In this document: piece after piece, positions 660-17,642 of the stretch
Numbering within the stretch: position 1 is the first letter of the stretch
How the letters are laid out: every line of letters starts with the position of its first letter
DNA from: Gammaproteobacteria bacterium
GTDB lineage: Bacteria; Pseudomonadota; Gammaproteobacteria; DSM-16500
DNA: 17,642 bases
Direction of reading: 5' to 3'
Assembly (NCBI GenBank): GCA_004322325.1
Contig: SCTP01000269.1
Coordinates: forward strand, 1 to 17,642
Translations under genes and position numbers: made by a program
Notes under the pieces: model-generated
Database searches by the model: none
Told to the model about the DNA's origin: nothing
What the model saw: only the letters and a program-made list of their open reading frames with translations

Positions 660-665
660 GGCCTT

Positions 666-1985: not shown

Positions 1986-2086
1986 AACTTCCTATACATT
2001 ATCGCCCAAACGCAGCAATCGTATCGAAACTTTACCCCAAAGTCTAGAAACAGGAAGCATCATCTAAGAGGAGAGGAATCAACACC

Positions 2087-3547: not shown

Positions 3548-3902
3548 TCAGCGCCAATCTCACTGCTTCCAGTTTTGACATTTTGGCAGCACGTAATACT
3601 TCGTATACTTCTGCTAGCTTCGTTAATAAACGCGATTTCTTTAATTTACCCTCCCGATTCCCTTCCGGTAATTCGCGAATCTCACGCAATGCTCGTGCAA
3701 TTTCATCCCAATTATAGGCAGCCGCTTGCTCACGTGGCACCGTGGGTTTCTTTTCACCCCCTTCATTATTTTTTGCAGCGGTTGAGGAGAGATCAAGTAT
3801 CACCGCTTTATATCGTTCTGCGGCACTCATCAACACGTCAAGTCGGTCTTCTAGTGTACCTTTATGCGTGTCATCAGATTGTGGATAAAACATTAACGCC
3901 AT
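3501..3902 (-). CDS. Small unknown charged helical protein (133 aa)
   Basis: Function not recognised. The product is hydrophilic and predicted mostly helical, rich in Arg, Lys, Glu and Ala, with no signal peptide or membrane segment. A central low-complexity hinge (N-N-E-G-G-E-K-K-P) separates an N-terminal helix from a C-terminal helical part containing R-A-L-R-E-I-R-E-L-P-E-G. The frame stays open upstream to a GTG at 3944, but the ATG at 3902 is preferred because a perfect AGGAGG lies five bases before it; that choice gives M-A-L-M-F-Y-P-Q as the N-terminus. The 3' end runs into the peptide transporter's 3' end by 47 bases (tail-to-tail overlap). A leader of 120 bases separates it from yifB upstream, so it probably has its own promoter. 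Confidence 0.7.
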   Translation of the reverse strand: MALMFYPQSDDTHKGTLEDRLDVLMSAAERYKAVILDLSSTAAKNNEGGEKKPTVPREQAAAYNWDEIARALREIRELPEGNREGKLKKSRLLTKLAEVYEVLRAAKMSKLEAVRLALISEANQLRGDASQVA

Positions 3903-3907
3903 ACCCC

Positions 3908-3913
3908 CCTCCT
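3908..3913 (-). promoter_or_regulatory. Shine-Dalgarno AGGAGG that fixes the start of the 133-aa gene
   Basis: On the minus strand AGGAGG is followed by five bases and then ATG GCG TTA. This is an ideal match and spacing, far better than anything in front of the upstream in-frame GTG (3944) or the ATG pair at 3921-3926. It argues for a 133-residue rather than a 147-residue product. Confidence 0.7.
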
Positions 3914-4022
3914 CATTCATCATTATGGTTTTTATTCTTACCACACTTAAGATATTTTTAGTATAGACACTGATAGAAAAATTGCTCGGCCTAAATAGAT
4001 CAAAAAATATACAATTTAGCCA

Positions 4023-5540
4023 TTAAATCTCTTTCTTCAAACGATCTAAGCATCGATACTGTAATGCTTCACTAAGATGCGCTTGGCAAATGGCCTGACT
4101 TCCATCCAAATCAGCAATGGTTCTCGCCACTTTAATAATGCGATGATAAACTCGGGCTGAAAGATTAAACCGTGTCATGACATGATTCAATAACTGTATT
4201 GCCTCAGGCTGAATGGAAAAAAATTGATCAATTTCTGGCACACTGAGCAAATTATTGCATTTCCCTTGTCGTTGGTACTGATAATCCCGCGCTTTTATCA
4301 CCCGCGCACGCACACTATCGCTATGCTCAATGGCTTGTTGATTTATATTAGCTAACAAGTTCGGCGGCAAGCGTGCGACCTCCACCTGCATATCAATTCG
4401 ATCCAATAAAGGCCCGGAAATTTTTCCCAGGTAACGCTGAATTTGCTCTTTGCTACACCGGCAATGGTCCATGGCACTCCCTGCATAACCGCAAGGACAC
4501 GGATTCATGGCAGCCATCAATTGAAATTGCGCAGGGAAACTGGTTTGGAAAGCGGCACGAGAAATCGTAATCGAGCCTGATTCTAATGGCTCACGTAAAC
4601 TTTCTAACACATGGCGGCTGAATTCAGGAAACTCGTCAAGAAATAAAACACCATGATGCGCCAAGGAAATCTCACCCGGCCGCGGCGGACGCCCACCCCC
4701 GACGAGCGCGACGCTAGAGCTGCTATGATGCGGTGATCGAAAAGGAATGCGCTTCCATGTCGCTGCATCAAAACCATTATTGCTAACCGAGGCAATCGCC
4801 GCGACTTCTAATGCTTCTTGATCATTTATCTCAGGTAGAATACTCGGCAAACGGCTTGCTAACATGGTTTTCCCCGTCCCGGGCGGTCCGATGAACAGCA
4901 AACTATGCCGACCAGCCGCCGCAATTTCCAATGCACGTTTTGCATGCGGCTGCCCTTTGACATCCGCTAAATCAATCAGTGATTCATGCGATGTCAGCGG
5001 TGAGGAAGCGGAACAGCTTACTAAAGACTGCTCTCCACGCAAGTGTGCACACACTTCCAATAAATGTTTTGCTGATAATGTCTGCGCCTGTTGCACTAAC
5101 GCCGCTTCCTGCGCATTATGATGCGGCACAATCAAACGTCGGCCAGATTGATATGCACTTAATACCACCGGCAATACACCTCGGATGGGGCGTAACTCTC
5201 CTGATAAAGCGAGCTCGCCAGCAAATTCATACTGCTTAAGAACCTCGTGCGGAAGTTGATCCGATGCGGCCAATATGCCGAGCGCAATCGGTAAATCAAA
5301 TCGACCGCCTTCTTTCGGTAAATCAGCGGGAGCTAAATTAATTGTGATACGGCGGCAGGGAAATTCAAACTGCGTATTCATTAAAGCGCTGCGCACACGA
5401 TCTTTACTTTCTTTTACCGCTGCTTCCGGCAGGCCGACAATATTCAGCCCCGCCATCCCATTCGATAAATGTACTTCCACCGTCACCAAAGGTGCCGTAA
5501 TACCAGCCGAAGCACGGCTATAAACAATAGCGAGTGTCAT
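4023..5540 (-). CDS. comM: YifB/ComM family Mg-chelatase-like AAA+ ATPase
   Basis: ComM/YifB is a hexameric AAA+ helicase that drives branch migration of incoming single-stranded DNA during natural transformation; in other bacteria it is a general YifB protein. Order of domains: N-terminal Lon-protease-like (ChlI) domain (M-T-L-A-I-V-Y-S-R-A, then G-L-N-I-V-G-L-P-E), AAA+ core with Walker A G-P-P-G-T-G-K-T near residues 218-225 and Walker B V-L-F-L-D-E-F near 295-301, a Cys-rich N-P-C-P-C-G...C-R-C segment, then L-L-D-R-I-D and a C-terminal Mg_chelatase_C region. The ATG at 5540 is chosen over the upstream in-frame ATG at 5576. It matches the usual family N-terminus and has AAGGA seven bases ahead, giving 505 residues. 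It diverges from pnuC. Whether this organism is competent is not shown here. Confidence 0.93.
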   Translation of the reverse strand: MTLAIVYSRASAGITAPLVTVEVHLSNGMAGLNIVGLPEAAVKESKDRVRSALMNTQFEFPCRRITINLAPADLPKEGGRFDLPIALGILAASDQLPHEVLKQYEFAGELALSGELRPIRGVLPVVLSAYQSGRRLIVPHHNAQEAALVQQAQTLSAKHLLEVCAHLRGEQSLVSCSASSPLTSHESLIDLADVKGQPHAKRALEIAAAGRHSLLFIGPPGTGKTMLASRLPSILPEINDQEALEVAAIASVSNNGFDAATWKRIPFRSPHHSSSSVALVGGGRPPRPGEISLAHHGVLFLDEFPEFSRHVLESLREPLESGSITISRAAFQTSFPAQFQLMAAMNPCPCGYAGSAMDHCRCSKEQIQRYLGKISGPLLDRIDMQVEVARLPPNLLANINQQAIEHSDSVRARVIKARDYQYQRQGKCNNLLSVPEIDQFFSIQPEAIQLLNHVMTRFNLSARVYHRIIKVARTIADLDGSQAICQAHLSEALQYRCLDRLKKEI

Positions 5541-5609
5541 GAAAAGTTCCTTGCAAAGAGTTTTTTCTAGAGACAAATAAACACAGATTCGATAAAATGG
5601 CGGGAATAC

Positions 5610-5632
5610 TATTACGCATACGCATACTAATA
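5610..5632. repeat. Inverted repeat with internal direct repeat between comM and pnuC
   Basis: Within the 114-base divergent gap, TATTA (5610-5614) and TAATA (5628-5632) are inverted around two tandem copies of CGCATA (5615-5626). The position suits an operator or shared promoter element for comM (minus) and pnuC (plus). The arms are short and AT-only, so chance is a real alternative. No NAD-type riboswitch fold was recognised in this gap. Confidence 0.25.
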
Positions 5633-5654
5633 CACCTAAAAAAGTTTTTCAATC

Positions 5655-6308
5655 ATGAATAACCTCTATCAGATCTTTAATATCCATACCGTTTTTTTTA
5701 CTTTTGATGGGTATCGCATGAGTTATCTCGAATGCCTGGGTACCTTGTTCAATTTCTACGCGGTTTATTTGGTAGCCAGAAATAATATACTCACTTGGCC
5801 GATTGGTAGTATTGGCGCTGTGCTCTTCGGACTGCTTTTCTATCAAATCCAACTTTATTCAGAAGTCATTGAACAAATTTATTTTCTTGCAGCAGGCTTT
5901 TATGGGTGGTGGATTTGGTGGTCATTAAAAAGAAATAATCAGGAACAAAATTCATCATCGATAAAATTTCTTTCAGCGAAGGCCAATATTCACTGCATCA
6001 TGGTAGTGATCGTTGGGACGCTATTGATGGGATACCTCATGAGTCATATCAATGTATGGCTTCCAGCGCGATCGCTTCGACCTGCCTCTGTCCCCTATCT
6101 TGACGCCTTCGTCACCATGATGAGCTTTGCCGCTGTCATGCTGATGACATATAAGAAAGTAGAAAGTTGGTATTGGTGGATTGCGATAGATGTGGTGGTG
6201 ATAGGGTTATATTTTTCTGAAGGTATCCTATTAATGGCTAGCCTGTATGCGCTATTTTTATTTATTTCCATCAAGGGTGCTTATAATTGGCAGAAATGGG
6301 CAGTATAA
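5655..6308 (+). CDS. pnuC: PnuC-type nicotinamide riboside transporter
   Basis: PnuC carries nicotinamide riboside across the inner membrane by facilitated diffusion, feeding NAD salvage. The 217-residue protein has about seven hydrophobic helices and lines up by eye with E. coli PnuC: S-Y-L-E-C-L-G-T-L near the N-terminus, then I-G-A-V-L-F-G-L-L-F-Y-Q-I-Q-L-Y, a Trp-rich F-Y-G-W-W-I-W-W matching the family's substrate-binding Trp motif, and a C-terminal D-A-F-V-T-M-M-S-F...K-V-E-S-W segment. The first ATG (5655) keeps the usual N-terminal tail before helix 1; its ribosome site is weak. Another ATG at 5718 would remove that tail. The stop codon overlaps the -10 box of the following tRNA gene. 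Which NAD precursor is taken up (riboside or another) is not proven by sequence. Confidence 0.9.
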   Translation: MNNLYQIFNIHTVFFTFDGYRMSYLECLGTLFNFYAVYLVARNNILTWPIGSIGAVLFGLLFYQIQLYSEVIEQIYFLAAGFYGWWIWWSLKRNNQEQNSSSIKFLSAKANIHCIMVVIVGTLLMGYLMSHINVWLPARSLRPASVPYLDAFVTMMSFAAVMLMTYKKVESWYWWIAIDVVVIGLYFSEGILLMASLYALFLFISIKGAYNWQKWAV

Positions 6309-6309
6309 T
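6281..6309 (+). promoter_or_regulatory. Promoter of tRNA-Arg, -10 box TATAAT overlapping the pnuC stop
   Basis: A perfect TATAAT (6304-6309) covers the pnuC TAA stop (6306-6308). A weak -35 (TTATAA, 6281-6286) lies 17 bases before it. Start of transcription would fall at about 6316, three bases before the tRNA 5' end, and the G/C-rich bases between the -10 box and the tRNA resemble the discriminator of growth-controlled stable-RNA promoters. Confidence 0.55.
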
Positions 6310-6318
6310 TCGTTCGCT

Positions 6319-6392
6319 GCGCCCGTAGCTCAGTTGGATAGAGTGTTGGTTTCCGAAGCCAAAGGCCGGAGGTTCGAATCCTCTCGGGCGCG
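6319..6392 (+). tRNA. tRNA-Arg, anticodon CCG
   Basis: A full cloverleaf can be drawn by hand. The acceptor GCGCCCG pairs with CGGGCGC and G is the discriminator base. The D arm is GCTC...GAGT, the anticodon stem TTGGT/GCCAA encloses the loop TTCCGAA with anticodon CCG (reads CGG), the variable loop has five bases, and the T arm is GGAGG-TTCGAAT-CCTCT. A few G-T pairs occur at stem ends. It closely resembles the E. coli tRNA-Arg(CCG). The 3' CCA is not encoded; CTG follows, so CCA must be added by the nucleotidyltransferase. It begins 10 bases after pnuC, and 63 of its 74 bases lie inside the murU reading frame on the other strand. No Rho-independent terminator follows it. Confidence 0.95.
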
Positions 6393-7037
6393 CTGGTTGA
6401 GAAGATGAAGATCTTCCGGTGTACCCACGTTATACCATGTTCCCTGATAATGCTCGCCTGTCAGTTGATTGTTTACAATCGCAGGAATGAATAATTTCGT
6501 TAAACGAAAATGCCCCGGTTCGCAGTGAGTAAAAAATTCAGGATGAAACACAGAAATATTACCAAATGTTAATGTCGGCTGAGTATCCATGGTAAGACGT
6601 CCATTGTGTAATCCAAAATCACCGTGAGGATGATAAAGAGGATTATCCACCATCACCAAATGCGCCAAACCATTAGGATAACGGGGAAGTTGTGCGAGTG
6701 GGTAATCGGTGATGATGTCACTGCTTAAGACGATAAATGGCTCTTTCCCTAATAATGGCAAGGCTTGCAAAATGCCGCCGCCAGTTTCTAAACGTTCTTT
6801 TTCTTCAGAGTAAAAAATAGTTGCGCCATATCGCTTGCCATCACCCAACGCTGCTTTAATTTGATCTCCATGATAAGAGACGTTAATGACAATCTCATGA
6901 ATACCTGCTTTCACTAGACTAAAAATAGCGTATTCAATTAAATAGTTTTCTGCCACACGCAGCAAGGGCTTAGGCACCTCTACCGTTAACGGACCCATAC
7001 GCAATCCGCGACCTGCTGCTAAAATCATGGCACGCAT
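6330..7037 (-). CDS. murU: N-acetylmuramate alpha-1-phosphate uridylyltransferase MurU, C-terminus encoded by the antisense of a tRNA
   Basis: MurU converts MurNAc-1-phosphate and UTP to UDP-MurNAc in the cell-wall recycling shortcut that bypasses de novo MurA/MurB (cytoplasm). The nucleotidyltransferase signature L-A-A-G-R-G-L-R-M-G-P-L-T with V-P-K-P-L-L follows the N-terminus. L-E-T-G-G-G-I-L-Q-A-L-P-L-L-G, S-S-D-I-I-T-D and G-E-H-Y-Q-G-T-W-Y-N-V-G-T match Pseudomonas MurU closely. M-R-A-M-I-L-A-A-G is the usual N-terminus, supporting the ATG at 7037 over an ATG at 7028. It overlaps the end of amgK by 13 bases. The last 20 codons (residues 216-235) and the stop come from the complement of the tRNA-Arg gene, so the protein carries a tail that is not family sequence. 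The tail is probably harmless because the conserved fold ends before it. Confidence 0.92.
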   Translation of the reverse strand: MRAMILAAGRGLRMGPLTVEVPKPLLRVAENYLIEYAIFSLVKAGIHEIVINVSYHGDQIKAALGDGKRYGATIFYSEEKERLETGGGILQALPLLGKEPFIVLSSDIITDYPLAQLPRYPNGLAHLVMVDNPLYHPHGDFGLHNGRLTMDTQPTLTFGNISVFHPEFFTHCEPGHFRLTKLFIPAIVNNQLTGEHYQGTWYNVGTPEDLHLLNQRAREDSNLRPLASETNTLSN

Positions 7038-8035
7038 GTAGAAACTCGCTCGACAGCTGGCATCACCATTTCAGTCACATAGCGATGCAGCGTGGTTAAT
7101 TCGGAATATTTCGAACTGACTTGCTGTAAGTACATCAACGTCCGCGGCACATAGTTAAGATACTGCGATTGTTGATCACGCACTTGTTTACGAGCAAACG
7201 TTAGTAATGCTTTTAAATGGCGCTGCACGCTCATTAAGTCAAACCAATATAAAAAATCTTCTTTATTAATCTGAGGCAAGATGCCTAGCTGATGAAGTTG
7301 CTTAAAATACGTCAATGCCCATTTCGTCACCCATTCTGGTGGCCAATCAATATAACAATCTCTCAGCAAAGAAGCAGGATCATAAGTAATAGGGCCGATA
7401 AACGCATCTTGGAAATCGAGAATCCCCACTTTTTCTGGTAATACCATTAAATTGCCAGCGTGATAATCACGATGCATAAAAACCTGCGGTTGCGCAGCCG
7501 CTGTTTCAACAAGAAGGGCATAACACTCATCCAACTCTTCTTCCGCCAGCAATGTTAAACCCAGCCACTTTTCTAAAAACCATTCTTTATGCCAAGCCCA
7601 TTCTTGCCACATCAATTCCCGCGTAAAAGGCGGAAGAGAATAATTGAAAATGGGATGACACCCTTGCATCACTTCGAGCGCATCCAAGGCACGATGATAA
7701 AGCTCATCTACGTTTTTTTTATTCAAAGCACTGAGGTAAGTGCGGTCACCTAAATCTGTCAGTAATAAAAAGCCGTGCTCAAGGTCGGCCTGAATCACTT
7801 CTGGTGCGAGAAGCCCCCGCTCTCGCAGCGCACTCGCAATCGCCACGTAAGGACGGCAATTCTCCTGTGGCGGAGGAGCATCCATGGCAACAAAAGACCC
7901 TTTTGGCGTACGGACACGAAAGTAGCGGCGAAAGCTAGCATCGCCCACCATGGGCTGTAATACCAGGGAGGACAGGGCACAATCGGTATGCAGCCAGGTT
8001 TCTAGCATTTTTTTTCGTATGTTTACGGATTCCAT
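7025..8035 (-). CDS. amgK: Anomeric N-acetylmuramate/N-acetylglucosamine kinase AmgK
   Basis: AmgK phosphorylates MurNAc (and GlcNAc) at the anomeric carbon, giving the substrate of MurU, the next gene. It belongs to the aminoglycoside phosphotransferase fold. G-D-A-S-F-R-R-Y-F-R-V near residue 31 is the nucleotide loop. H-R-D-Y-H-A-G-N-L has catalytic Asp190, and I-L-D-F-Q-D-A has metal-binding Asp207. The 336-residue length is normal. The ATG at 8035 has AAAGGG about eight to ten bases ahead; an alternative ATG at 8008 lacks this. The order amgK-murU next to lptD-surA-pdxA and divergent from it is the arrangement known in Pseudomonas and many other gammaproteobacteria. The 79-base gap to lptD must hold both promoters. 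Loss or retention of this pair affects fosfomycin sensitivity in Pseudomonas; that is established for the family, not seen here. Confidence 0.93.
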   Translation of the reverse strand: MESVNIRKKMLETWLHTDCALSSLVLQPMVGDASFRRYFRVRTPKGSFVAMDAPPPQENCRPYVAIASALRERGLLAPEVIQADLEHGFLLLTDLGDRTYLSALNKKNVDELYHRALDALEVMQGCHPIFNYSLPPFTRELMWQEWAWHKEWFLEKWLGLTLLAEEELDECYALLVETAAAQPQVFMHRDYHAGNLMVLPEKVGILDFQDAFIGPITYDPASLLRDCYIDWPPEWVTKWALTYFKQLHQLGILPQINKEDFLYWFDLMSVQRHLKALLTFARKQVRDQQSQYLNYVPRTLMYLQQVSSKYSELTTLHRYVTEMVMPAVERVSTCVP

Positions 8036-8114
8036 TATCTAGCCCTTTTCGTTACACTTGCCGGTTTAAGTTAATCAGGCGGCTTTGGAAGAAATATAGC
8101 TTAGGGACACAAAA

Positions 8115-10670
8115 ATGTCTGCAAGAAAAATAGTACTCACAATAGGCTTGATCATTAGCTGCTTCCTTCCGCAGATGGCGCTGTCAGACGACACCATCGC
8201 GAAAGACTTAGGCTGGGTAAAAAGCGACGAAAATCACTGCGGGGGTTATTACCTGGAGCCATCTTTTGCCTATCCCGTTCAGTTAGAAAATGGCGGTTTA
8301 ATTGAAACCACAGGCCAGCAAGGCTTTTTCTCTTTTCATGGCACCTCGGTTCTTGAGGGTAAAGTGACGATTAACCGCGCTGGGCAGCAAATTACGGCCA
8401 ATAAAGCTTTTCTCTATCGAGACCCTGCCACGGGCAAAATTAACGCGATCGATTTAATCGGTGACGTCCATTTGCGTGAACCTAACACCCTGATTATCGG
8501 CAAAGAAGGGCATTACAACTTTCAAACGAATGCTAAATCTTTAACCGATGCGACCTATCGCACCACCATGCTGTTGAAAAACAAGGCAGCCGCGCCTACT
8601 CCACCCGTCAGCCAAGCGGCGACGCAGAAAGCACGTAAGGTCACTGGTTTAACGGCTTGGGGAAAGGCTTACCAATTTTCTCAGACGCAACCGAAGGTAT
8701 ATGATTTAACCAATGTCAGCTATACCACTTGCCCGCCTACCAACCCCATCTGGCACGTCCAAGCGAGCCACATGGTATTGAACAAAAATACCGGTCGTGG
8801 GTATGCGACTCATGCCCGTATCCTGATAAAAAATATTCCTGTTTTTTATACGCCTTATATTAATTTCCCCATTGATAACCGGCGTCAAACGGGTTTCTTA
8901 TGGCCACGATTTGGTATTTCGAACAAGCAAGGCCCGTATTTCCAAGCTCCTTTTTATTGGAATATGGCACCCAACTATGACATGACCATTACACCGAATA
9001 TCTTGACAAAACGCGGCATTCAGCTCAGTGATAACTTTCGTTACTTAACAGAGACTAGTTCCGGCAATATCGATCTTAGCGTCTTGCCACACGATCAATT
9101 CTTTTCTGATTTCCAAACCGCATCAAAAGAACAATTCAGCGATTCGACTGATCCTACGACTCAATCTGAATTAAATCGATTACTCAGCGCAACGAGCACG
9201 CGAACGAGTTTTTTCTGGCGTGATAATTCGCAATATAACGACCATTGGTCGAGCCATGTGGATTTTAACTATGCAAGTGATGATTATTACTTACAAGATT
9301 TTGGTAGCGGCCTTAACGAAAGCACGCAAAATCAATTACTACAACAAGGTGACTTATATTACAAAAGCGACCATTGGAACTTTACCGGCCGCGTTCAAGG
9401 TTATCAAACATTAAATCCTATTACGGAAAATGGCACTGCTGTTGCCACTCAATACCGTCGTCTGCCCGAACTGGTATTAAGCGGCGATTACCCAGACCAA
9501 GCTTATGGCCTTGAGTATTTTATCGATAATGACATCACCCATTTCGATATCCTCAAAACCCCTGGGGCGACCACTATCCCTCCCATTGGTAACCGCATTA
9601 ATGTTCAACCCGGCTTTAATTTGCCACTCTATTGGCCCTACTTTTATATGAATCCTCGTTTTCAAGTGGCATTAACGGATTATAATCTGCAGCAGGTATC
9701 TGATACGGATACACCGGCCAGCATCCATCGAGCGGTTCCTATTTTTGACGTCGCTACCGGTCTTTCGCTTTACCGTAACATCAATCTCTTTGGCCAGGGA
9801 TTCCAACAAACACTCGAACCTCAAATTTATTACACTTACATTCCCTATCGGGATCAATCCGATATTCCTATTTTTGATACGAATGTAACCACGCTGACGT
9901 ATGATCAATTATTTAATTACAATCGTTTCAGTGGCCTTGATCGCATTGGTGATGCTAATCAAATTAGCGCAGGGTTAACGACTCGCTTAATCGATCGGGA
10001 AACCGGTTTAGAAAAAGTTCGAGCGGCTATCGGTGAAATTGTTTACTTTGCTGATCGGCGCGTTACCTTGTGTAATAGCGCCAGTGAATGCAGCGATTAC
10101 CCTGGCAATCCCGTCAATAGCCAGCGTCTTTCTCCTGCATCAGGCACATTAGATTATCATGTCAATCCCGTATGGAAAGTATCCGGTAACGCCATTTGGA
10201 ACCCGACCACTAAACAAGTAGATAACTCGACGATTGGCCTCAATTATCAGCCAGATCCTCTTCGCGCTATCAATCTAGGCTACGGCTTTGCCCGCAACGG
10301 CGATCCTTTTTCAGGGGTAAGCACAGGCAATACCTCAGATAACAATTTGAAATTAACTGATTTTTCTTTCTCTTGGCCTTTAACGCGTGACATTAGCTCC
10401 GTTGGACGTTGGAGTCATGATTGGAATACGAATCATTTTCAGGACTTAATCTATGGGGTACAATATGATGCTTGTTGTTGGGCGGTGAGGATCGTCGCCA
10501 GTCGGACCTTCGTGGGAGTAGACCCTTCTAATAATAATACCTTGCTCTACGATAGTGGATTTTACATCCAATTCGCCCTGAAAGGTTTGGGCAATGTTGG
10601 CTCGGGAGACCCCACATCACTACTAAGCACTATTGGTGGTTACAATACACAATTTGGGCAGGAATATTAA
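8115..10670 (+). CDS. lptD: LPS-assembly protein LptD (outer-membrane LPS translocon)
   Basis: LptD with LptE forms the outer-membrane gate that inserts LPS into the outer leaflet. The N-terminal 24 or so residues form a signal peptide with a hydrophobic core and a likely cut after A-L-S. An OstA/LptA-like periplasmic jellyroll follows (about residues 55-165), then a 26-strand type C-terminal barrel with many alternating aromatic strands. The four cysteines of the essential LptD disulfides are in place: Cys42 (N-H-C-G-G-Y-Y), Cys206 (T-T-C-P-P) and the adjacent pair Cys787-Cys788 (D-A-C-C-W-A). Two extra cysteines, Cys653 and Cys659, lie in an exposed-looking segment. At 851 residues it is somewhat longer than E. 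coli LptD (784). AGGGA seven bases before the ATG supports the start. The stop codon directly abuts the surA ATG. Confidence 0.95.
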   Translation: MSARKIVLTIGLIISCFLPQMALSDDTIAKDLGWVKSDENHCGGYYLEPSFAYPVQLENGGLIETTGQQGFFSFHGTSVLEGKVTINRAGQQITANKAFLYRDPATGKINAIDLIGDVHLREPNTLIIGKEGHYNFQTNAKSLTDATYRTTMLLKNKAAAPTPPVSQAATQKARKVTGLTAWGKAYQFSQTQPKVYDLTNVSYTTCPPTNPIWHVQASHMVLNKNTGRGYATHARILIKNIPVFYTPYINFPIDNRRQTGFLWPRFGISNKQGPYFQAPFYWNMAPNYDMTITPNILTKRGIQLSDNFRYLTETSSGNIDLSVLPHDQFFSDFQTASKEQFSDSTDPTTQSELNRLLSATSTRTSFFWRDNSQYNDHWSSHVDFNYASDDYYLQDFGSGLNESTQNQLLQQGDLYYKSDHWNFTGRVQGYQTLNPITENGTAVATQYRRLPELVLSGDYPDQAYGLEYFIDNDITHFDILKTPGATTIPPIGNRINVQPGFNLPLYWPYFYMNPRFQVALTDYNLQQVSDTDTPASIHRAVPIFDVATGLSLYRNINLFGQGFQQTLEPQIYYTYIPYRDQSDIPIFDTNVTTLTYDQLFNYNRFSGLDRIGDANQISAGLTTRLIDRETGLEKVRAAIGEIVYFADRRVTLCNSASECSDYPGNPVNSQRLSPASGTLDYHVNPVWKVSGNAIWNPTTKQVDNSTIGLNYQPDPLRAINLGYGFARNGDPFSGVSTGNTSDNNLKLTDFSFSWPLTRDISSVGRWSHDWNTNHFQDLIYGVQYDACCWAVRIVASRTFVGVDPSNNNTLLYDSGFYIQFALKGLGNVGSGDPTSLLSTIGGYNTQFGQEY

Positions 10671-11657
10671 ATGAAAAACGTATTAATGATCATGAGTATG
10701 CTTTTATGCAGCCTTCTCGTTTGCACGAATGTTTATGCGAAAAATAAACAGAGTGAGCAGGCATTGGATCAAATCGTTGCTATTATCAATGATGATGTCG
10801 TCACGAAAAGTGAATTGAATCATGCGATCGACATGGTCAAACTGCAAATGACCCAAGGGCATCAACCAGTTCCAGCGGATAGCGTGTTACAAAAACAAGT
10901 ATTAGATCAACTCATCAATAAGAAACTGCAGCTTCAGCTCGCCAAGCAAGCGAATATTGCTATTACAGATACAGAAGTAGATAAAGCCATTAATCATATT
11001 GCTCAACAAAACAATATGTCCGTGAAGGATCTGTATCAACACATTAATAGCGATGGCATGAAAACCGACGATTATCGCGCTGAAATTCACGATCAAATGA
11101 CGTTACAAAAAATTGAGCAAAGTGAACTCATGAATCATATCACGGTGACACCAGAAGAAGTGACTGCTTTTATGCATTCAAAAGAATGGCAAAATAATGC
11201 GTTAAAAGAATATCATCTAGAAGACATCATGATTCCTTTTTCTGATACGCCTTCAACCGAAGAAATTCTTTCCTCTAAAAAACGTGCGCAGGCTGTTTTA
11301 ACTAAACTGAATGACGGCAAAACGTTTGCTGAAGTAGAGCAAAGTGATACCGGTGGTGATCGTGCTTTGCAAGGTGGGGATTTAGGTTGGCGTAAACTGC
11401 CCGAAATTCCTTCTGTTTTTGCTGAGAAAGTCGCGCACATGCGTGCGAATCAAATTGCTGGTCCGATACAGGCACCGAATGGTTTCCATATTATTCGCTT
11501 AATCGAAGTGCGCAGCATTTCTACTCAAGCCGCGCCAGGACGCAAGCAAGTGGAAGAATTACTCTTCCAGCGTAAATTTGCAGAAGCGGTGCAAGTATGG
11601 GTATCCAAGTTGCGCGGCCAAGCATTTATTGTGACGAATCCCAATCAGAATGGATGA
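10671..11657 (+). CDS. surA: Periplasmic chaperone/peptidyl-prolyl isomerase SurA, single-parvulin form
   Basis: SurA carries unfolded outer-membrane proteins through the periplasm. A signal peptide (hydrophobic core M-I-M-S-M-L-L-C-S-L-L-V) ends at V-Y-A. The N-terminal chaperone domain begins L-D-Q-I-V-A-I-I-N-D-D-V-V-T-K-S-E-L, which is the family's hallmark start, and spans to about residue 175. One parvulin domain follows (about 180-280), with G-G-D-L-G-W and the P-N-G-F-H-I-I-R-L strand. A short C-terminal chaperone helix ends the protein. E. coli SurA (428 residues) has two parvulin domains, while this one has 328 residues and only one. The start codon follows the lptD stop with no gap, and AGGA lies eight bases upstream inside lptD. 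The last 8 bases overlap pdxA. Substrate range may be narrower; that is inference. Confidence 0.93.
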   Translation: MKNVLMIMSMLLCSLLVCTNVYAKNKQSEQALDQIVAIINDDVVTKSELNHAIDMVKLQMTQGHQPVPADSVLQKQVLDQLINKKLQLQLAKQANIAITDTEVDKAINHIAQQNNMSVKDLYQHINSDGMKTDDYRAEIHDQMTLQKIEQSELMNHITVTPEEVTAFMHSKEWQNNALKEYHLEDIMIPFSDTPSTEEILSSKKRAQAVLTKLNDGKTFAEVEQSDTGGDRALQGGDLGWRKLPEIPSVFAEKVAHMRANQIAGPIQAPNGFHIIRLIEVRSISTQAAPGRKQVEELLFQRKFAEAVQVWVSKLRGQAFIVTNPNQNG

Positions 11658-12639
11658 TCACCCTCGCCTTCTCATCACGCCCGGTGAACCCGCTGGGATT
11701 GGACCTGATATCACGCTGCAACTAGCGCAGCAATCATGGCCTACTGAGTTAGTGGTAATCGCCGATCCAGCGCTTCTTATGCAACGTGCTCAGCAATTGG
11801 GATTGTCGGTAACGTTGAAAGAATGCGATTTACAGCAAGCGCCTGAGTTACATCAAGCGGGTACGTTAAAAATCATTCCCATTTCATTGAATACGATAGC
11901 GGAAGCAGGAAATTTGAATCCTGCGAATGCTGATTATGTCATTCGCACACTGAAAACCGCTGCGTCTTTGTGTCATGGTGAAAAAAAACGGGCGGATGCG
12001 ATTGTCACAGGGCCGGTGCACAAAGGCGTGATTAATGAAGCGGGGATTGCGTTTACGGGGCATACAGAATTTTTTGCGCAGTATTGTCGTGTGCCGCAAA
12101 CAGTGATGTTATTTGTGGCTGATCAACTCAAAGTGGCATTGGCAACCACGCATTTACCGTTAGCGAAAGTGCCGGAAGCGATTACGAAAGCACATCTGCG
12201 CTCAGTCATTTCTACTTTGCAGGCAGGGTTAAAACAGCAATTCCGTTTGGAATCGCCGCGGATAGCGGTGTGCGGGCTGAATCCGCATGCGGGTGAAGGT
12301 GGCCATTTGGGACGGGAAGAGATTGAGACGATTACGCCGCTGTTAGCAGAATTGCGCGAGCAACATTACGATGTGATTGGCCCATTGCCGGCCGATACGA
12401 TTTTTACGCCTAAGCATTTGCAAGAAGCGGATGTCGTGCTGGCGATGTATCATGATCAGGCGTTGCCGTTAGTGAAATATATTGGTTTTGGGCATGCGGT
12501 GAATGTGACATTGGGATTGCCGTTTGTGCGGACGTCGGTTGATCATGGGACGGCACTGGATGTGGCGGGGACGAATAGAGCAGATGCGGGGAGTATGATG
12601 GCGGCGGTGGAGTTGGCGATTAGGATGATTGATGGATGA
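11650..12639 (+). CDS. pdxA: 4-hydroxythreonine-4-phosphate dehydrogenase PdxA
   Basis: PdxA oxidises 4-phosphohydroxy-L-threonine with NAD+ to a product that PdxJ uses to make pyridoxine 5'-phosphate, in the cytoplasm. The 329-residue length is normal. Key parts are I-T-P-G-E-P-A-G-I-G-P-D at the N-terminus, T-G-P-V-H-K near 115, and the three divalent-metal histidines His168 (T-T-H-L-P), His213 (N-P-H-A-G-E) and His268 (Y-H-D-Q), which correspond to 166/211/266 of the E. coli enzyme. T-S-V-D-H-G-T-A-L-D closes the active site. It overlaps the end of surA by 8 bases and ends the lptD-surA-pdxA operon. In most relatives ksgA follows. Here the next gene is an unrelated convergent one only seven bases away, at the point where base composition drops sharply. 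Confidence 0.96.
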   Translation: MDDHPRLLITPGEPAGIGPDITLQLAQQSWPTELVVIADPALLMQRAQQLGLSVTLKECDLQQAPELHQAGTLKIIPISLNTIAEAGNLNPANADYVIRTLKTAASLCHGEKKRADAIVTGPVHKGVINEAGIAFTGHTEFFAQYCRVPQTVMLFVADQLKVALATTHLPLAKVPEAITKAHLRSVISTLQAGLKQQFRLESPRIAVCGLNPHAGEGGHLGREEIETITPLLAELREQHYDVIGPLPADTIFTPKHLQEADVVLAMYHDQALPLVKYIGFGHAVNVTLGLPFVRTSVDHGTALDVAGTNRADAGSMMAAVELAIRMIDG

Positions 12640-12646
12640 TTTCTAT

Positions 12647-13198
12647 CTATTCAGACTCATGCTCTTCGCTTTGAGCTTTCTTACCTCCTACAATTTGTAA
12701 TTGAGCTATTTTTCCATTCCAATCTTGACTAATGCTAGCAGCAGTAGTTTGCTTAATAATCTCTCTAGCAAGCTGCCTTCCATGCTTAAAACCAGTATTA
12801 TAAGCAATTTTATATACATCGATATTTTTTATTCTTTCAATCAATAAAATATTGTCGCATATTTCATCGCCACATAAAAGCTTCTCGGTACTTCCATCAG
12901 AAAGTATATATTTATTATCACGTAAAATTTCTGAAACTCTTAACATCGATTTTTTTTGTATTTCATTATAATTTTCTATAGCGATTTTTATTAAATCTAT
13001 AGGATTGATGTCGTACAAAATACGTTTGTTGTTTTGAATATCTTCAAATGTAAATTTGGGAAAAGTATGCTCACCAAACACTTTAAAACGATAGACAGTA
13101 TTCTTTGTCGACAAATTGTAAAATTGACTGTCTAATGACAAATGATATCTAGGCTTTATCCTGCGAAAAAAACTAATAATCCTATCAATTAATTTCAT
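12647..13198 (-). CDS. Unrecognised 183-aa protein, last gene of the regulator operon
   Basis: Function not recognised. The frame is open to an ATG at 13264, but that start would overlap the preceding phosphoesterase by 62 bases. The ATG at 13198, four bases after that gene's stop, is preferred (M-K-L-I-D-R-I-I-S-F-F-R-R), although its ribosome site is poor and translation would rely on coupling. The product is basic at the N-terminus with an amphipathic start, has no membrane span or signal peptide, two cysteines (L-L-C-G-D-E-I-C-D), a helical C-terminal half (Y-N-T-G-F-K-H-G-R-Q-L-A-R-E-I-I) and a charged tail. The gene is AT-rich and tail-to-tail with pdxA, with seven bases between stops. 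Co-transcription with the phosphoesterase, transporter and regulator is strongly suggested by spacing. A role as a ligand-binding or regulatory partner is only a guess. Confidence 0.65.
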   Translation of the reverse strand: MKLIDRIISFFRRIKPRYHLSLDSQFYNLSTKNTVYRFKVFGEHTFPKFTFEDIQNNKRILYDINPIDLIKIAIENYNEIQKKSMLRVSEILRDNKYILSDGSTEKLLCGDEICDNILLIERIKNIDVYKIAYNTGFKHGRQLAREIIKQTTAASISQDWNGKIAQLQIVGGKKAQSEEHESE

Positions 13199-13202
13199 TT
13201 GA

Positions 13203-13961
13203 TTACCATAACTTAGCAATCGCTGTATAATCAGCTGGAGTAAAATAATAAATTTTAAACCCAATTTTGGAATCTATTTTTAAGTCTTTTGTTCCTTGCT
13301 GCCATTGCAGGCATGTTGCTGGCGTGGATTCAATCATAACATCACGGTATTTAAATTTATAATCGCCATGCACATGACCGCAAATAATAAGCTTTACCTG
13401 CGTTCCTGTTATAATATCCCAAAATTCATTCCTATTTTGCAAAATATAGTGATCAACAAGTGGCGTACCAACTTCAGCAGGATGATGATGCATAACAATA
13501 GCGATATTAGCGTCACCCGCCAATGTAGCAATAGTATTTTTTAATAATGCTAATTCGGAATCAGGTAAATAGCCATCTTTGGTATTAAGGAAAATCAAAT
13601 TCCATCCAGGCAAAGTTAAATGCCGCGCCTGAAAAAAATTTTTAGCGTCCTTGAACACAACCTTCATCCGCTCAAAATTATCATGGTTTCCTGGTATCCA
13701 ATACACCGGGATGGTCAATTTTGAAAAAATATCGATAACTTTTTGATATGACTGGTCTGTTTCATCTTGAGAAACATCGCCCGTAAGAAAAATAATATCA
13801 GCATCATGGCTGTCTTCATCAAGAATTTTTTCAACAACTTCTTTAAATTTAATATTACTTTTTGCACCAAAAATATCCGCATCATCATCAGCAAATAAAT
13901 GTGTATCACTAAGCTGAATAACTTTCACGATATTGTCTTTTAATTTGGCTGATTTTATCAT
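13203..13961 (-). CDS. Calcineurin-like metallophosphoesterase, CpdA/3',5'-cyclic-nucleotide phosphodiesterase-like
   Basis: A two-metal phosphoesterase with every core motif of the class: L-S-D-T-H (Asp19, His21), T-G-D-V-S-Q-D (Asp62), P-G-N-H-D (Asn92-His93), V-M-H-H-H-P (near 158-160) and C-G-H-V-H-G (His196, His198). The arrangement and the length of 252 residues fit the CpdA group, which hydrolyses cAMP, but relatives act on other cyclic nucleotides, phospholipids or nucleotide by-products, so the substrate is open. The ATG at 13961 is preferred because GGAG lies nine bases upstream; an upstream in-frame ATG at 13988 would add nine residues. The start lies inside the 3' end of the transporter gene (53-base overlap), and the next gene starts four bases after its stop, indicating one operon. 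It could be a housekeeping-type enzyme recruited to the island. Confidence 0.85.
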   Translation of the reverse strand: MIKSAKLKDNIVKVIQLSDTHLFADDDADIFGAKSNIKFKEVVEKILDEDSHDADIIFLTGDVSQDETDQSYQKVIDIFSKLTIPVYWIPGNHDNFERMKVVFKDAKNFFQARHLTLPGWNLIFLNTKDGYLPDSELALLKNTIATLAGDANIAIVMHHHPAEVGTPLVDHYILQNRNEFWDIITGTQVKLIICGHVHGDYKFKYRDVMIESTPATCLQWQQGTKDLKIDSKIGFKIYYFTPADYTAIAKLW

Positions 13962-14655
13962 ATTTATTTTCTCCGATAGCATCCTCATTAAAAACTGTCA
14001 ATGGATTGTATGGAACACCATAATCAAAATAATCTAATTTTTCTATCCGTTTAATAATATTCGATAATAATATAGCCACAGGAAACAACAGAATCGCAAT
14101 AACCATTTTATAAGTCCAGGTATTAATTGCTATTTTAACAATATAATGAGCAGTGTATTGGCCATAAAAGTTAATAGGATAAGAAATAAATACCAAAATA
14201 GCCTTGCCTATCGCATTTGAAATTAGAAATCTTATTATAAAATATCTTCCCGACATGTATATTTTTAACTTCGACATAACCACATCATTAATAAAATAAG
14301 CTGATGTCACTGCAATGCTAGATGCTATTAACACATGCCAAAGATTATGAAAAACGGCAAAATAATGCGTCGCGGTATTTGCGCTTTCAGGTGATGGGAG
14401 AAATACAAATAAATTAATTGTTAAAATAAACAATGCTGAACATGTCAATTGTATCCAAATAATTCTACCGGCCAATTTAAAACCATATACATCAGTTATT
14501 ATGCTAGAAAATAAAAAACTAAAGGGAAAAATTATTCCACTTGCAACAAGATCATGCCCACCAATAGATACTATTTTAAATGCCAATACATCACAGATTA
14601 ATAAAATAGTTATCATTAACCCAACTAAAAGACCATATAGTTTTAATCGATGCAT
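13909..14655 (-). CDS. VUT-family transporter (YhhQ/queuosine-precursor-transporter type)
   Basis: A 248-residue inner-membrane protein with six hydrophobic helices. The pattern F-P-F-S-F-L-F-S-S-I-I-T-D-V-Y-G in helix 2 is the hallmark of the YhhQ/DUF165/VUT group, whose characterised members import the 7-deazapurine queuosine precursors preQ0, preQ1 or queuine. A TTG at 14667 extends the frame, but the ATG at 14655 is preferred; TGAGAA precedes it by seven bases and it falls eight bases after the regulator's stop. The C-terminus after helix 6 is a long polar tail (Y-N-P-L-T-V-F-N-E-D) that overlaps the phosphoesterase start. Next to a natural-product-like operon the ligand could differ from queuine; that is speculation. 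An ordinary queuosine salvage function is the default reading. Confidence 0.85.
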   Translation of the reverse strand: MHRLKLYGLLVGLMITILLICDVLAFKIVSIGGHDLVASGIIFPFSFLFSSIITDVYGFKLAGRIIWIQLTCSALFILTINLFVFLPSPESANTATHYFAVFHNLWHVLIASSIAVTSAYFINDVVMSKLKIYMSGRYFIIRFLISNAIGKAILVFISYPINFYGQYTAHYIVKIAINTWTYKMVIAILLFPVAILLSNIIKRIEKLDYFDYGVPYNPLTVFNEDAIGENKYDKISQIKRQYRESYSA

Positions 14656-14663
14656 GTTTATTC

Positions 14664-15314
14664 TCAATCATGAAAATGCTGTATTGCTTTTATAACCATA
14701 CCGTGAATTGTAAAATCATTACTTTTAATGGTATTATCGCCTATTATTTCTGAAATAGGTTTAAAAAAATAACATTTCTCTTCAATAAATACCTTTCTAA
14801 AGCAAGGTGGATTTTTTCCAAACTGAACGAGCACAATATCGCCATCGTGAACTTGAGTATCATGCGCTATGACAAAAATCGATCCTTTATCAAAAAGTGG
14901 GCTCATAGCATGATTATTTATTTTAATAGCATAAAATTTATCCGACCTCCAAGACTCAAGCTCCGTAGATATAGTATTCTTATACCTATTTTTATTTCTT
15001 AAAAAGTCCGAAAGTTCATCTAAATTTAATAAGGGAATCTCATAAACAACACGAGATTTTTTAGCATCAGCGGATAAATTAGCTTCTGTTAATTGTCCAA
15101 TGGATACATCAAAAAATTCAGCCAGTTGATATAGGGTTGATAGGGTCGGATTGCCTGCACCGCGCTTCAAACTATTAATAGTGGTTAATGCAATTCCCGT
15201 TTTGGCACTTAAGCTAGAGGAATCCACATTAAACTCATGCATTAGACAGCAAAGATTACTGGCAAGAAGGCCAATATCCATAGATCCAACTTTTTTATTC
15301 AAATGACTTGACAT
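14664..15314 (-). CDS. XRE-S24 (LexA/CI-like) transcriptional regulator lacking the catalytic serine
   Basis: 216 residues. The N-terminal helix-turn-helix (about residues 18-75) contains L-S-A-K-T-G-I-A-L-T-T-I-N-S-L-K-R-G and ends L-A-E-F-F-D-V-S-I-G-Q-L, a classic XRE/CI pattern. The C-terminal half is an S24 LexA/UmuD-like fold (I-N-N-H-A-M-S-P-L-F, then V-H-D-G-D-I-V-L-V). Where LexA and lambda CI have G-x-S-M with the nucleophile Ser, this protein reads H-A-M, i.e. Ala136; the general-base Lys appears kept (F-R-K, Lys174). It should therefore not cleave itself in the SOS response and may instead bind a ligand or another protein. The ATG at 15314 has no ribosome site; the ATG at 15281 (M-D-I-G-L-L-A-S) is a plausible alternative. 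It heads a four-gene minus operon, divergent from the hydroxylase operon, and is the obvious candidate regulator of both. Confidence 0.88.
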   Translation of the reverse strand: MSSHLNKKVGSMDIGLLASNLCCLMHEFNVDSSSLSAKTGIALTTINSLKRGAGNPTLSTLYQLAEFFDVSIGQLTEANLSADAKKSRVVYEIPLLNLDELSDFLRNKNRYKNTISTELESWRSDKFYAIKINNHAMSPLFDKGSIFVIAHDTQVHDGDIVLVQFGKNPPCFRKVFIEEKCYFFKPISEIIGDNTIKSNDFTIHGMVIKAIQHFHD

Positions 15315-15328
15315 AATGATAATAAAAA

Positions 15329-15340
15329 GTTATTTATAAC
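15329..15340. promoter_or_regulatory. Inverted repeat GTTAT-TT-ATAAC, candidate operator over a -10 box
   Basis: A perfect 5-bp inverted repeat with a two-base centre lies 14 bases before the regulator start. On the minus strand it contains TATAAA, a good -10 box for the regulator gene, with no convincing -35. On the plus strand a perfect TTGACA (15308-15313) lies 15 bases upstream, but only a poor -10 follows at 17-base spacing. A repressor binding here would block either promoter. Confidence 0.35.
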
Positions 15341-15354
15341 GCCATAAAGTTTCA

Positions 15355-15374
15355 TTTAACATTTTAAAGTTAAA
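15355..15374. promoter_or_regulatory. Inverted repeat TTTAAC-N8-GTTAAA, candidate second operator
   Basis: Six-base arms TTTAAC (15355-15360) and GTTAAA (15369-15374) are exact reverse complements around the eight-base spacer ATTTTAAA. The dyad sits where the -35 of the regulator promoter would be, 26 bases centre-to-start from the first inverted repeat. Twenty-base dyads are typical CI/XRE dimer sites, but the DNA is very AT-rich, which raises the chance rate. Confidence 0.3.
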
Positions 15375-15428
15375 CACCCTAGAGTGATAGTTTACCTATT
15401 TACTTTAGGAAAGCAATCTTAATAAATC

Positions 15429-15491
15429 ATGGAGACTAAAAATATGCTATTAGAGGATCCCTACCTAAACCACTTTCCTCATAATTATTAA
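15429..15491 (+). CDS. Tiny ORF (20 codons), possible leader peptide before the hydroxylase operon
   Basis: ATG at 15429 opens 20 codons ending in TAA; a second in-frame ATG at 15444 has GGAG nine bases ahead and would give 15 residues (M-L-L-E-D-P-Y-L-N-H-F-P-H-N-Y). It lies between the divergent regulator and the hydroxylase and is followed by a small hairpin (15543-15564). The peptide is rich in His, Tyr, Asn and Pro codons but has no run of a single amino acid. It could be a leader peptide, a remnant of a longer gene, or chance. No homology can be judged at this length. Confidence 0.2.
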   Translation: METKNMLLEDPYLNHFPHNY

Positions 15492-15542
15492 AGTTCAATT
15501 TTTATGAAAAATCTCACAAAGGGATAAAAATTTGCGCGGTTT

Positions 15543-15564
15543 ATTACCGAAAGTGTTTGGTAAT
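15543..15564 (+). other. Hairpin ATTACC-N10-GGTAAT ahead of the lysine hydroxylase
   Basis: Six-base exact inverted repeat with a ten-base loop, followed by TTTT at 15564-15567. The stem is short and weak for a terminator, yet its place between a tiny ORF and the hydroxylase would suit an attenuator or an operator. The rest of the 281-base gap 15315-15596 shows no longer reading frame. Confidence 0.25.
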
Positions 15565-15629
15565 TTTAGTAATTATTTAAAATTTGGCACCACAACATGA
15601 ATCGAAGCAAAATATCTTGGAAAATAATA

Positions 15630-16973
15630 ATGAACGGCCAGTTTGAACCACAGAGTTTTGATGCTGTTGGTATTGGTATCGGCGCCTTCAATTTAAGTTT
15701 GGCAGCCTTACTAAAAAAAACAGAGAATTTTAAATATAAATTTTTCGATAAAAAGGAAGAATTTATTTGGCACGAAGGGATGTTGCTCGAAAATGCAAAA
15801 TTGCAAGTGCATTTTCTAAAAGATTTAGCAAGCTGCGTAGACCCATCCAATCCATATACTTTTTTAGCTTATTTAGCAGACCAAGATCGCATATATCAAT
15901 TTTTAAACCGTAAAAAAAACATAGTTTCGAGACATGAATTCAACTCTTATTTTAAGTGGGCAGCTAAACGTATCCCAGGCCTTAATTTTGGCGAAAAAAT
16001 AATTGACCTTCAATATAATGAAGAAAAATTCAACATTATTACTGAGAAAAGATCATTATATTCAAAGCACCTTATTATTGGAACAGGCATCCAACCCTAT
16101 ATACCTGAACGATTCTCTAAATTCATAAGCAATGATTTTTTTCATAATTGTGAATTCAAGCGTCATATTAATAAAATTGACTTTACAAATAAACGCGTTG
16201 CTATCATTGGCGGCGGTCAAAGCGGTGCTGAGATATTCGATACACTTATTTCACAAAAAAATAAACCGGCAGAAATTATTTGGGTCTCAAAACGTTTAAA
16301 CTTTCAAGCTTTAGAAGATAACTGCTTTGCTAATGAATTTTATACCCCCTATTATGTTAATTATTTTTACAATTTACCAAAGGATGTCCGTGAAAATAAA
16401 TTAAAATTACAACGCCTGACAAGTGATGGTATAACAGAGGAACTTATGGATGAAATTTATAATAAATTATATGAATTAAAATATGTTAGCCAAGAAAACT
16501 TAAAATTTGAGCTCATACCAAATCATAATTTGTCTCAAGTTAAAAAATATGGAAAAGAATATTTTCTTACTTTACTTGATGAAGATTTAAAAGCATCAAT
16601 TAATTATGCTGTTGATATTGTCATTTTAGCTACCGGCTACCAGCCTTATGTCCCAGAATATTTGAAAAATTTATTTCCTAATGCGAACAATGCCAATGAG
16701 CTATCTATTAATTTCGATTATTCAATTAATTGGGATCATTGTCAAAAAAATAAGATTTTTATTCAAAATGGAGCTAAGAATACACATGGGGTTGCGGACC
16801 CTAATCTAAGCTTAGCTGCTTGGCGCAATGCTGTTATTATCAATTCTTTACTTGGTAAAGAGTTTTATAAAACCAATAAAGATCAACACATACTTGGCAG
16901 GACATTACCAGCTTACGGGCAAAACCCCTTTAATTTGCATATCCCTCAAGTACTAGACGAGGCAAATCCATGA
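15630..16973 (+). CDS. FAD/NADPH-dependent L-lysine N6-monooxygenase, IucD family
   Basis: Hydroxylates the side-chain amine of lysine (or a close relative such as ornithine) with O2, FAD and NADPH. FAD motif G-I-G-I-G-A-F-N (residues 14-21), V-H-F-L-K-D-L and S-N-P-Y-T-F-L-A-Y (60-81), NADPH loop G-G-G-Q-S-G (194-199), the closing A-T-G-Y-Q-P (334-339) and T-H-G-V-A-D-P-N-L-S-L-A-A-W-R-N align along the full length with E. coli aerobactin IucD, including T-S-D-G-I-T. The ATG at 15630 (447 residues) has GGAAAA eight bases ahead and is preferred; an upstream in-frame ATG at 15597 has no ribosome site. The stop TGA overlaps the next ATG (ATGA), so translation is coupled to the cupin/MetRS-like fusion. 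No siderophore synthetase is seen in the window; the partner suggests N-N bond formation instead. Very AT-rich. Confidence 0.92.
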   Translation: MNGQFEPQSFDAVGIGIGAFNLSLAALLKKTENFKYKFFDKKEEFIWHEGMLLENAKLQVHFLKDLASCVDPSNPYTFLAYLADQDRIYQFLNRKKNIVSRHEFNSYFKWAAKRIPGLNFGEKIIDLQYNEEKFNIITEKRSLYSKHLIIGTGIQPYIPERFSKFISNDFFHNCEFKRHINKIDFTNKRVAIIGGGQSGAEIFDTLISQKNKPAEIIWVSKRLNFQALEDNCFANEFYTPYYVNYFYNLPKDVRENKLKLQRLTSDGITEELMDEIYNKLYELKYVSQENLKFELIPNHNLSQVKKYGKEYFLTLLDEDLKASINYAVDIVILATGYQPYVPEYLKNLFPNANNANELSINFDYSINWDHCQKNKIFIQNGAKNTHGVADPNLSLAAWRNAVIINSLLGKEFYKTNKDQHILGRTLPAYGQNPFNLHIPQVLDEANP

Positions 16974-17642
16974 TGAAATTACAAAGAAAACTCAATCACT
17001 CAATCTATAATGCTTCACGCTTTGTGGTTAAACCAAATAACCATACTAAATATCATAATCATCATGAAATAGAAGTATTTATTACCATATCAGGCGAAGG
17101 GTTAATAAAAATTGATGGGAATGATGTTAGTTTAAAATCTGGAGTTATTATTGAATTAGAGCCATTAAAAACTCATATTATTTTTAATACAAGCGACAAA
17201 AATGACTTGATTATATGCAGCTTTTGGTGGAATGATAATGATCATTTTCATAATTCGATAAAGAATAAATTTTTAGAATTGACAGAAATAGGACAGCACG
17301 ATGATGTTCATTTCATTTTACCCAGCTTTACAACTCCTAATGGTAACCTTCATGTTGGACATATAGCTGGACCATTGTTAGCTGCTGATATATTAAAAAG
17401 AAACTATAATCTTAATAAATTTAATGCTTATTTGTTAACAGGCACCATTGGGCATCAAACTCAAGTACAAATCGAAGCAGATAAATTAGGAAAAACATTT
17501 TTAGAAACAGCATTATTTTATTCTGAAAAAATAAGACAATCAATGGAATATATAAATATACAACCAGATTGCTTTATTACTCTTGAAAATAAAGATAATC
17601 TTATTATGGTTTCAAATTTATTCATAGATAGATTACTTAAAA
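16970..17642 (+). CDS. Cupin fused to methionyl-tRNA-synthetase-like domain: probable hydrazine synthetase, cut by right edge
   Basis: 224 residues are visible. Residues 15-90 form a cupin: motif 1 reads H-N-H-H-E-I-E with six residues then Gly, giving ligands His29, His31 and Glu35; motif 2 gives His69 before I-I-F-N. This is a complete 3-His/1-Glu metal site. From about residue 113 a class I synthetase begins: F-I-L-P-S-F-T-T-P-N-G-N-L-H-V-G-H-I, with the HIGH-type motif at 128-131, then L-T-G-T-I-G-H-Q and A-D-K-L-G-K, as in MetRS. A housekeeping MetRS has no cupin. This fusion, directly after a lysine N6-hydroxylase, matches the hydrazine synthetases (Spb40 type). In those the MetRS-like part activates an amino acid such as glycine and the Zn-cupin rearranges the ester with N6-hydroxylysine to an N-N bond. 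GAGG seven bases ahead and the ATGA overlap support the start. The KMSKS part lies beyond the edge. Confidence 0.85.
   Translation, partial: MMKLQRKLNHSIYNASRFVVKPNNHTKYHNHHEIEVFITISGEGLIKIDGNDVSLKSGVIIELEPLKTHIIFNTSDKNDLIICSFWWNDNDHFHNSIKNKFLELTEIGQHDDVHFILPSFTTPNGNLHVGHIAGPLLAADILKRNYNLNKFNAYLLTGTIGHQTQVQIEADKLGKTFLETALFYSEKIRQSMEYINIQPDCFITLENKDNLIMVSNLFIDRLLK

Follow-up and report, generated by a model that had tools for sequence, protein, structure and literature searches.

The right end of contig SCTP01000269.1 (assembly GCA_004322325.1, Gammaproteobacteria bacterium) raises the question of whether the two coupled genes found there form a nitrogen-nitrogen bond and, if they do, from which amino acids and towards which product. 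The window (the whole stretch of DNA that was analysed, 17,642 nucleotides) is an entire contig (C253) of a 2.03 Mb genome (353 contigs, 93% complete), and a sequence-only reading of it had recognised a lysine N6-hydroxylase coupled to a cupin/MetRS-like fusion, interpreted as a hydrazine-forming pair with glycine as a possible substrate. Our analysis makes it likely that the pair opens a small operon that would build a hydrazine metabolite of the type made by PyrN (pyrazomycin, Streptomyces) and RHS1 (Rhodococcus jostii RHA1), arranged in the order N-hydroxylase, hydrazine synthetase, ATP-grasp ligase, saccharopine-dehydrogenase-like (SDH-like) protein, MFS exporter, GNAT and second ATP-grasp ligase.

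The coupled gene pair and its continuation

The first gene (15597..16973, plus strand, 458 aa; an ATG at 15630 is an equally plausible start) encodes a FAD/NADPH N-hydroxylase of the SidA/IucD/PvdA family (PF13434, Lys_Orn_oxgnase, E = 4e-104), predicted to be an L-lysine N6-hydroxylase, and is the sole PF13434 match in the genome. It overlaps by 4 bases (ATGA) with the synthetase gene, whose N-terminal part (16970..17642, plus strand) holds a cupin domain (protein residues 17-80, 17018..17209, plus strand; PF07883, Cupin_2, E = 3.2e-9) followed by the first part of a MetRS-like domain (tRNA-synt_1g, E = 1.4e-11) with the HIGH-type ATP-binding motif TPNGNLHVGH (17333..17362, plus strand). The coupling and the fusion described by the sequence-only reading are thereby borne out. 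By match to 5UQP, the cupin carries a predicted zinc site (H29, H31, the catalytic Glu E35, and H69; 17054..17176, plus strand) with the same spacing as D63, H65, E69 and H103 of RHS1, residues named in the available part of PMC8664883; the position of D63 is occupied by His here, in a register inferred from the constant spacing. The best fold match of the synthetase is PyrN, in a Foldseek/VIA list filled by the MetRS part, and the match concerns that part rather than the cupin. A separate housekeeping MetRS is present in the genome, and the N-hydroxylase is linked to the synthetase. On the strength of these motifs, the pair at 15597-17642 is predicted to form an N-N bond.

The synthetase gene runs off the right end of C253, with no stop before 17642, and an own-genome search with the MetRS family recovered a second piece, lacking the head, with which contig C122 begins. 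C253 ends in 20 bases (17623..17642, plus strand) that are identical to the first 20 of C122, and this 20-mer occurs at only these two places genome-wide; the frame stays open on C122 for a further 430 aa (C122 2-1294, locus L012). Compared with a full-length relative (P0003), the two halves show 63% and 60% identity with the junction in register. Chance does not account for the gene pair and its continuation. The continuation retains a KFSTSR loop (KFSTS-type), so that both adenylation motifs are intact, and the absence of an in-frame stop speaks against a pseudogene.

The last 29 bases of C122 are in turn common to contig C324, and the two contigs carry the rest of the operon, as anticipated by the expectation of tailoring genes beyond 17642: ATP-grasp ligase 1 (C122 1291-2538), the SDH-like protein (C122 2548-3714; PF16653 C-terminal domain, E = 1.1e-24), the MFS transporter (C122 3707-4912), the GNAT (C122 4917-end, finished on C324) and ATP-grasp ligase 2 (C324 294-1529), after which a small helix-turn-helix (HTH) protein is encoded on C324.

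The partner amino acid and the proposed pathway

Glycine had been named as the partner of lysine, and the phylogeny and the pocket residues point elsewhere. In a FastTree phylogeny of 83 domains the synthetase falls in a clade (support 0.993) with an SDH gene nearby wherever the neighbourhood is known. In the IQ-TREE phylogeny (84 sequences, 399 columns, PyrN added; ultrafast bootstrap values as printed after re-rooting) PyrN and the RHA1 synthetase group at 97 and are joined to the window clade at 100, while the position of P0014 differs between the two trees. Using the pocket residues of E. coli MetRS as we assume them to be, we found that two pocket arginines (359 and 399, P0003 numbering) are common to the window synthetase, PyrN and RHA1, the K. 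aureofaciens synthetase having Ala and Tyr at these positions. Because the synthetase groups with the glutamate users PyrN and RHA1 and shares both arginines with them, its partner amino acid is probably glutamate and not glycine. According to the available part of PMC8664883, PyrN joins N6-hydroxylysine to Glu, RHS1 uses Lys and Glu, and overexpression of the three R. jostii proteins in an R. jostii strain yields the same Lys-Glu conjugate as with PyrN.

The pairing of arginines with the cleaving enzyme was counted over 73 loci (88 taken, minus 12 near-duplicates removed by hand, L025 and L053 as too short, and the genome's own MetRS). Both arginines occurred together with an SDH gene in 10 loci and without it in none; these 10 form a single clade and the counts are not independent. 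An FAD oxidase without SDH was present in 24 loci, neither enzyme in 36 and both in none. The labels 'Tri28' (L060) and 'Afn' (L088) rest on species name, with no sequence check. The three remaining loci (L044, L046 and L055, all Pseudomonas) have a hydroxylase, a fused synthetase and an SDH-like gene without both arginines (R and S, with Ser at the second pocket position), and their synthetases perhaps use a different amino acid.

It seems unlikely, then, that the operon runs the same N-N chemistry on a small amino acid such as glycine, in a hydrazinoacetic-acid pathway like those of s56-p1, triacsin and azaserine. The s56-p1 and triacsin pathways use glycine, as the accessible portion of PMC11705231 has it, and genes for saccharopine dehydrogenase, ATP-grasp, MFS and N-acetyltransferase proteins are listed for the azaserine cluster too (PMC10445470, in the part available); against this stand the pocket residues and tree position typical of glutamate users and an operon with an SDH-like gene in the place of a Spb39-type FAD oxidase. 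The cleaving enzyme for the lysine skeleton is therefore of the kind that the sequence-only reading had foreseen downstream in its dehydrogenase form, not as an FAD oxidase, and is predicted from its family to be SDH-type.

Reading the gene content and motifs seen in the operon against homologues of known activity, we propose that the hydroxylase would make N6-hydroxy-L-lysine; that the MetRS-like domain would adenylate L-glutamate and pass the glutamyl group to the hydroxylamine oxygen, after which the zinc cupin would rearrange the ester to an N-N bond, giving a hydrazine analogue of saccharopine; and that the SDH-like enzyme would use NAD(P) to oxidise the C-epsilon-N bond of lysine, which would set free aminoadipate semialdehyde and 2-hydrazinoglutarate. 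The latter is the predicted intermediate by analogy with pyrazomycin, whose SDH-like enzyme is proposed to give 2-hydrazinoglutarate in the sections at hand of PMC8664883. The last step is a guess from enzyme class: ATP-grasp ligase 1 may activate a carboxylate of 2-hydrazinoglutarate, so that an amino acid is joined or a cyclic hydrazide closed, ligase 2 and the GNAT may add groups or protect the hydrazine, and the MFS protein may export the product.

The operon resembles PyrM/PyrN/PyrL in its hydroxylase, fused cupin/MetRS-like synthetase and SDH-like enzyme, in the pocket arginines and in the fold match, and differs from them by two ATP-grasp ligases and a GNAT, its synthetase being 30% identical to PyrN; a general Pfam scan (no specific query was run) detected no C-nucleoside/glycoside (C-glycoside synthase) gene among the island's open reading frames (ORFs). 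The RHS1 cluster of R. jostii RHA1 (and DK17) matches it in hydroxylase, MetRS-like protein, SDH, ATP-grasp, GNAT, MFS and second ATP-grasp, yet its cupin and MetRS-like protein are separate rather than fused, and it contains a lysine 2,3-aminomutase, a luciferase-like monooxygenase, an AMP-binding protein and carrier proteins that are absent here. Spb38/Spb40/Spb39 (s56-p1) share the hydroxylase and the fused synthetase, but employ a glycine partner and FAD oxidase cleavage in contrast to the Glu-type pocket and SDH-type enzyme of the window operon.

A survey of the genome collection (80 loci kept, 140 relatives) revealed the same gene order, hydroxylase-synthetase-ATP-grasp-SDH, in Bradyrhizobium (L018-L023), a Bacteroidetes metagenome-assembled genome (MAG; L024) and Burkholderiales MAGs (L017, where the order starts at the synthetase at a contig edge, and L025). 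In the six Bradyrhizobium loci it continues with ATP-grasp and MFS, and L024 is the same without an MFS match; the second ATP-grasp of these operons is of another type than ours, and no GNAT match lies beside the Bradyrhizobium ones. In L025 a GNAT gene stands between hydroxylase and synthetase, the latter being in two overlapping ORFs (9968-11850; a frameshift or assembly error). For ligase 1, identity is 36-41% across the five loci of this set that were compared and 32% in RHA1/DK17. Within the order a synthetase was found in 3 of 36 genomes at E 1e-40, all of this genus, and in a sample of the class in 1 of 369 at E 1e-60. Two other genomes of the genus carry different synthetase loci (L102 in G001, 7981-12135; L101 in G014, 6640-11322), one with a DAO-type FAD oxidase and hydroxylase, like s56-p1, the other with a hydroxylase and an unassigned 427-aa protein.

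Because this gene association was predicted in 2010, the kind of system is not new in principle: the available part of PMC2922099 predicts gene neighbourhoods of this sort for several bacterial phyla, describes variants with SDH, GNAT and ATP-grasp, and suggests host interaction, while PMC11705231 (in part) covers hydrazine synthetases from Pseudomonas, Colwellia and Ralstonia. A literature search that covered the key hydrazine-synthetase papers only partly returned no report of the pathway in Legionellales. Hence, the PyrN/RHS1-type system is already known; what is added here is its setting, together with the complete set of genes and the assignment to glutamate.

The substrate of the N-hydroxylase

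The closest solved structures of the hydroxylase by score are diamine-type (putrescine- and desferrioxamine-type enzymes), and a diamine hydroxylase was rejected because the enzyme keeps K75 and N246, the Lys/Asn pair presumed to mark an amino-acid-type active site; they are common to MbtG and KtzI and lost in 7us3, 6xbb and 5o8p. Both residues are present in 55 of 58 linked hydroxylases (exceptions L050, L065 and L095). The residue pair points to an amino-acid-type enzyme; the lysine of the sequence-only reading is a family-level prediction, with ornithine as an alternative substrate.

We regard as somewhat less probable than the glycine alternative a synthetase whose hydroxylamine substrate is N5-hydroxyornithine or some other compound and whose partner is an acidic amino acid, leading to another hydrazine and another cleavage. 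The Lys/Asn pair is common to Lys and Orn hydroxylases, and members of the synthetase family accept hydroxy-diaminobutyrate or hydroxy-ornithine (PMC11705231, available part); the SDH-type enzyme, however, suits a lysine skeleton, and both Glu-type relatives take N6-hydroxylysine, as stated in the accessible parts of PMC8664883 and PMC11705231.

Less probable still is a siderophore operon, in which N6-acyl-N6-hydroxylysine would come from hydroxylase and GNAT, and a peptide from the MetRS-like protein and the ATP-grasp ligases. This was proposed for the gene set in 2010 (PMC2922099, in the part available), and hydroxylase and GNAT do occur together in the operon. Plasmid IucD proteins are ~36-37% identical to the hydroxylase. 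In the hydroxylase tree siderophore enzymes are mixed in at deeper nodes and are not separated there from hydrazine-linked ones: those fetched from siderophore contexts (two Rhizobium NRPS, i.e. nonribosomal peptide synthetase, and one Halobacterium IucA/C) and one Vibrio sequence of unstated context form no separate group, the Rhizobium and Vibrio ones falling beside the K. aureofaciens group. Conversely, the nearest relatives (L026, 62%, and L025, 49% identity; support of the trio 1.0) both adjoin hydrazine synthetases, the catalytic Glu of the cupin is kept, and no IucA/IucC match was obtained in this 93% complete genome with a control that matched 2 of 14 genomes. The island contains no NRPS; elsewhere in the genome one weak condensation-domain match lies below cut-off. 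The L026 locus (Gammaproteobacteria MAG nzgw578, 8565-17330) is another hydrazine-type cluster, with an SDH-like protein 53% identical to ours and a different synthetase, followed by aminotransferase, Sua5/YrdC, GcvT and MFS genes.

The island and its bearer

The operon lies in an AT-rich island of ~15 kb, whose left part (12640..17642) has a G+C of 0.30-0.32 vs 0.43 at 1-12639; the low values continue through C122 into the beginning of C324, and from C324 4590 the G+C is 0.46. Its flanks are pdxA (11650-12639) and a thioesterase gene (C324 5056-5493, minus strand). In 10 relatives, mostly the more complete among 55, these two genes are convergent neighbours in 7 (from a 7-base overlap to 46 apart); in the others they are 10.5 kb apart with other genes between (G009), rearranged (G001) or on different contigs (G023). 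Therefore, ~15.3 kb is inserted in this genome, and the adjacency also supports the order C253-C122-C324 independently of the overlaps. Repeats, both at the left edge of the island and in the promoter region, were short ones only, and among viral sequences 9 stretches fit the search pattern and none encoded a relative.

In the closest relative checked the same site (L116, G009:C111:9000-21081) holds other cargo, namely MFS, PEP-carboxylase-like and BKACE genes and a 2-hydroxyacid dehydrogenase, together with proteins distantly related to the S24 regulator (22%) and the Vut_1 transporter (25%) of the window. The site looks like one of exchangeable metabolic cargo.

Divergent from the operon, overlapping minus-strand genes (12647-15314) encode an S24-type regulator with an HTH (14664..15314, minus strand; PF13443, PF01381, PF00717), a Vut_1/queuosine-precursor-type transporter, a SpdA-like phosphodiesterase and a 205-aa protein of no family. 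That the regulator controls the operon is a guess; the divergent intergenic region (15315..15596, from the ORF map) held promoter-like sites no more than shuffled sequence, and an Rfam scan of 12600-17642 gave zero matches. At the other end of the window (3-1985, minus strand) a haem-oxygenase-like protein (PF14518, below cut-off) adjoins a 439-aa protein without a Pfam match.

Among the 120 relatives listed, the best named cultures by PdxA are Aquicella siphonis (67%) and A. lusitana (66%), a genus of the Coxiellaceae, Legionellales. On this evidence the bearer is an uncultured relative of Legionella and Coxiella, in line with the guess of the sequence-only reading, yet neither genus itself. 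The idea that a gammaproteobacterium of Legionellales type carries a hydrazine-forming pair in an island is thus supported. The accompanying suggestion of action in a host is supported by nothing in our analysis.

We put forward, tentatively and as a reading that may well prove wrong, that the island is metabolic cargo in Legionellales associated with amoebae or hosts and makes an exported, NRPS-free hydrazine (a peptide or cyclic hydrazide derived from 2-hydrazinoglutarate) of a compound class undescribed from the order, by a pathway type common to nodulating Bradyrhizobium, and that the genus repeatedly acquired different hydrazine pathways. If so, N-N bond chemistry would be placed in an order known for intracellular bacteria, and the two arginines together with an SDH gene would serve as a sequence rule to tell glutamate-type from glycine-type hydrazine synthetases. 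The orphan operon would have been kept across three phyla, and its product could be searched for in culturable Bradyrhizobium or Rhodococcus instead of the uncultured bearer.
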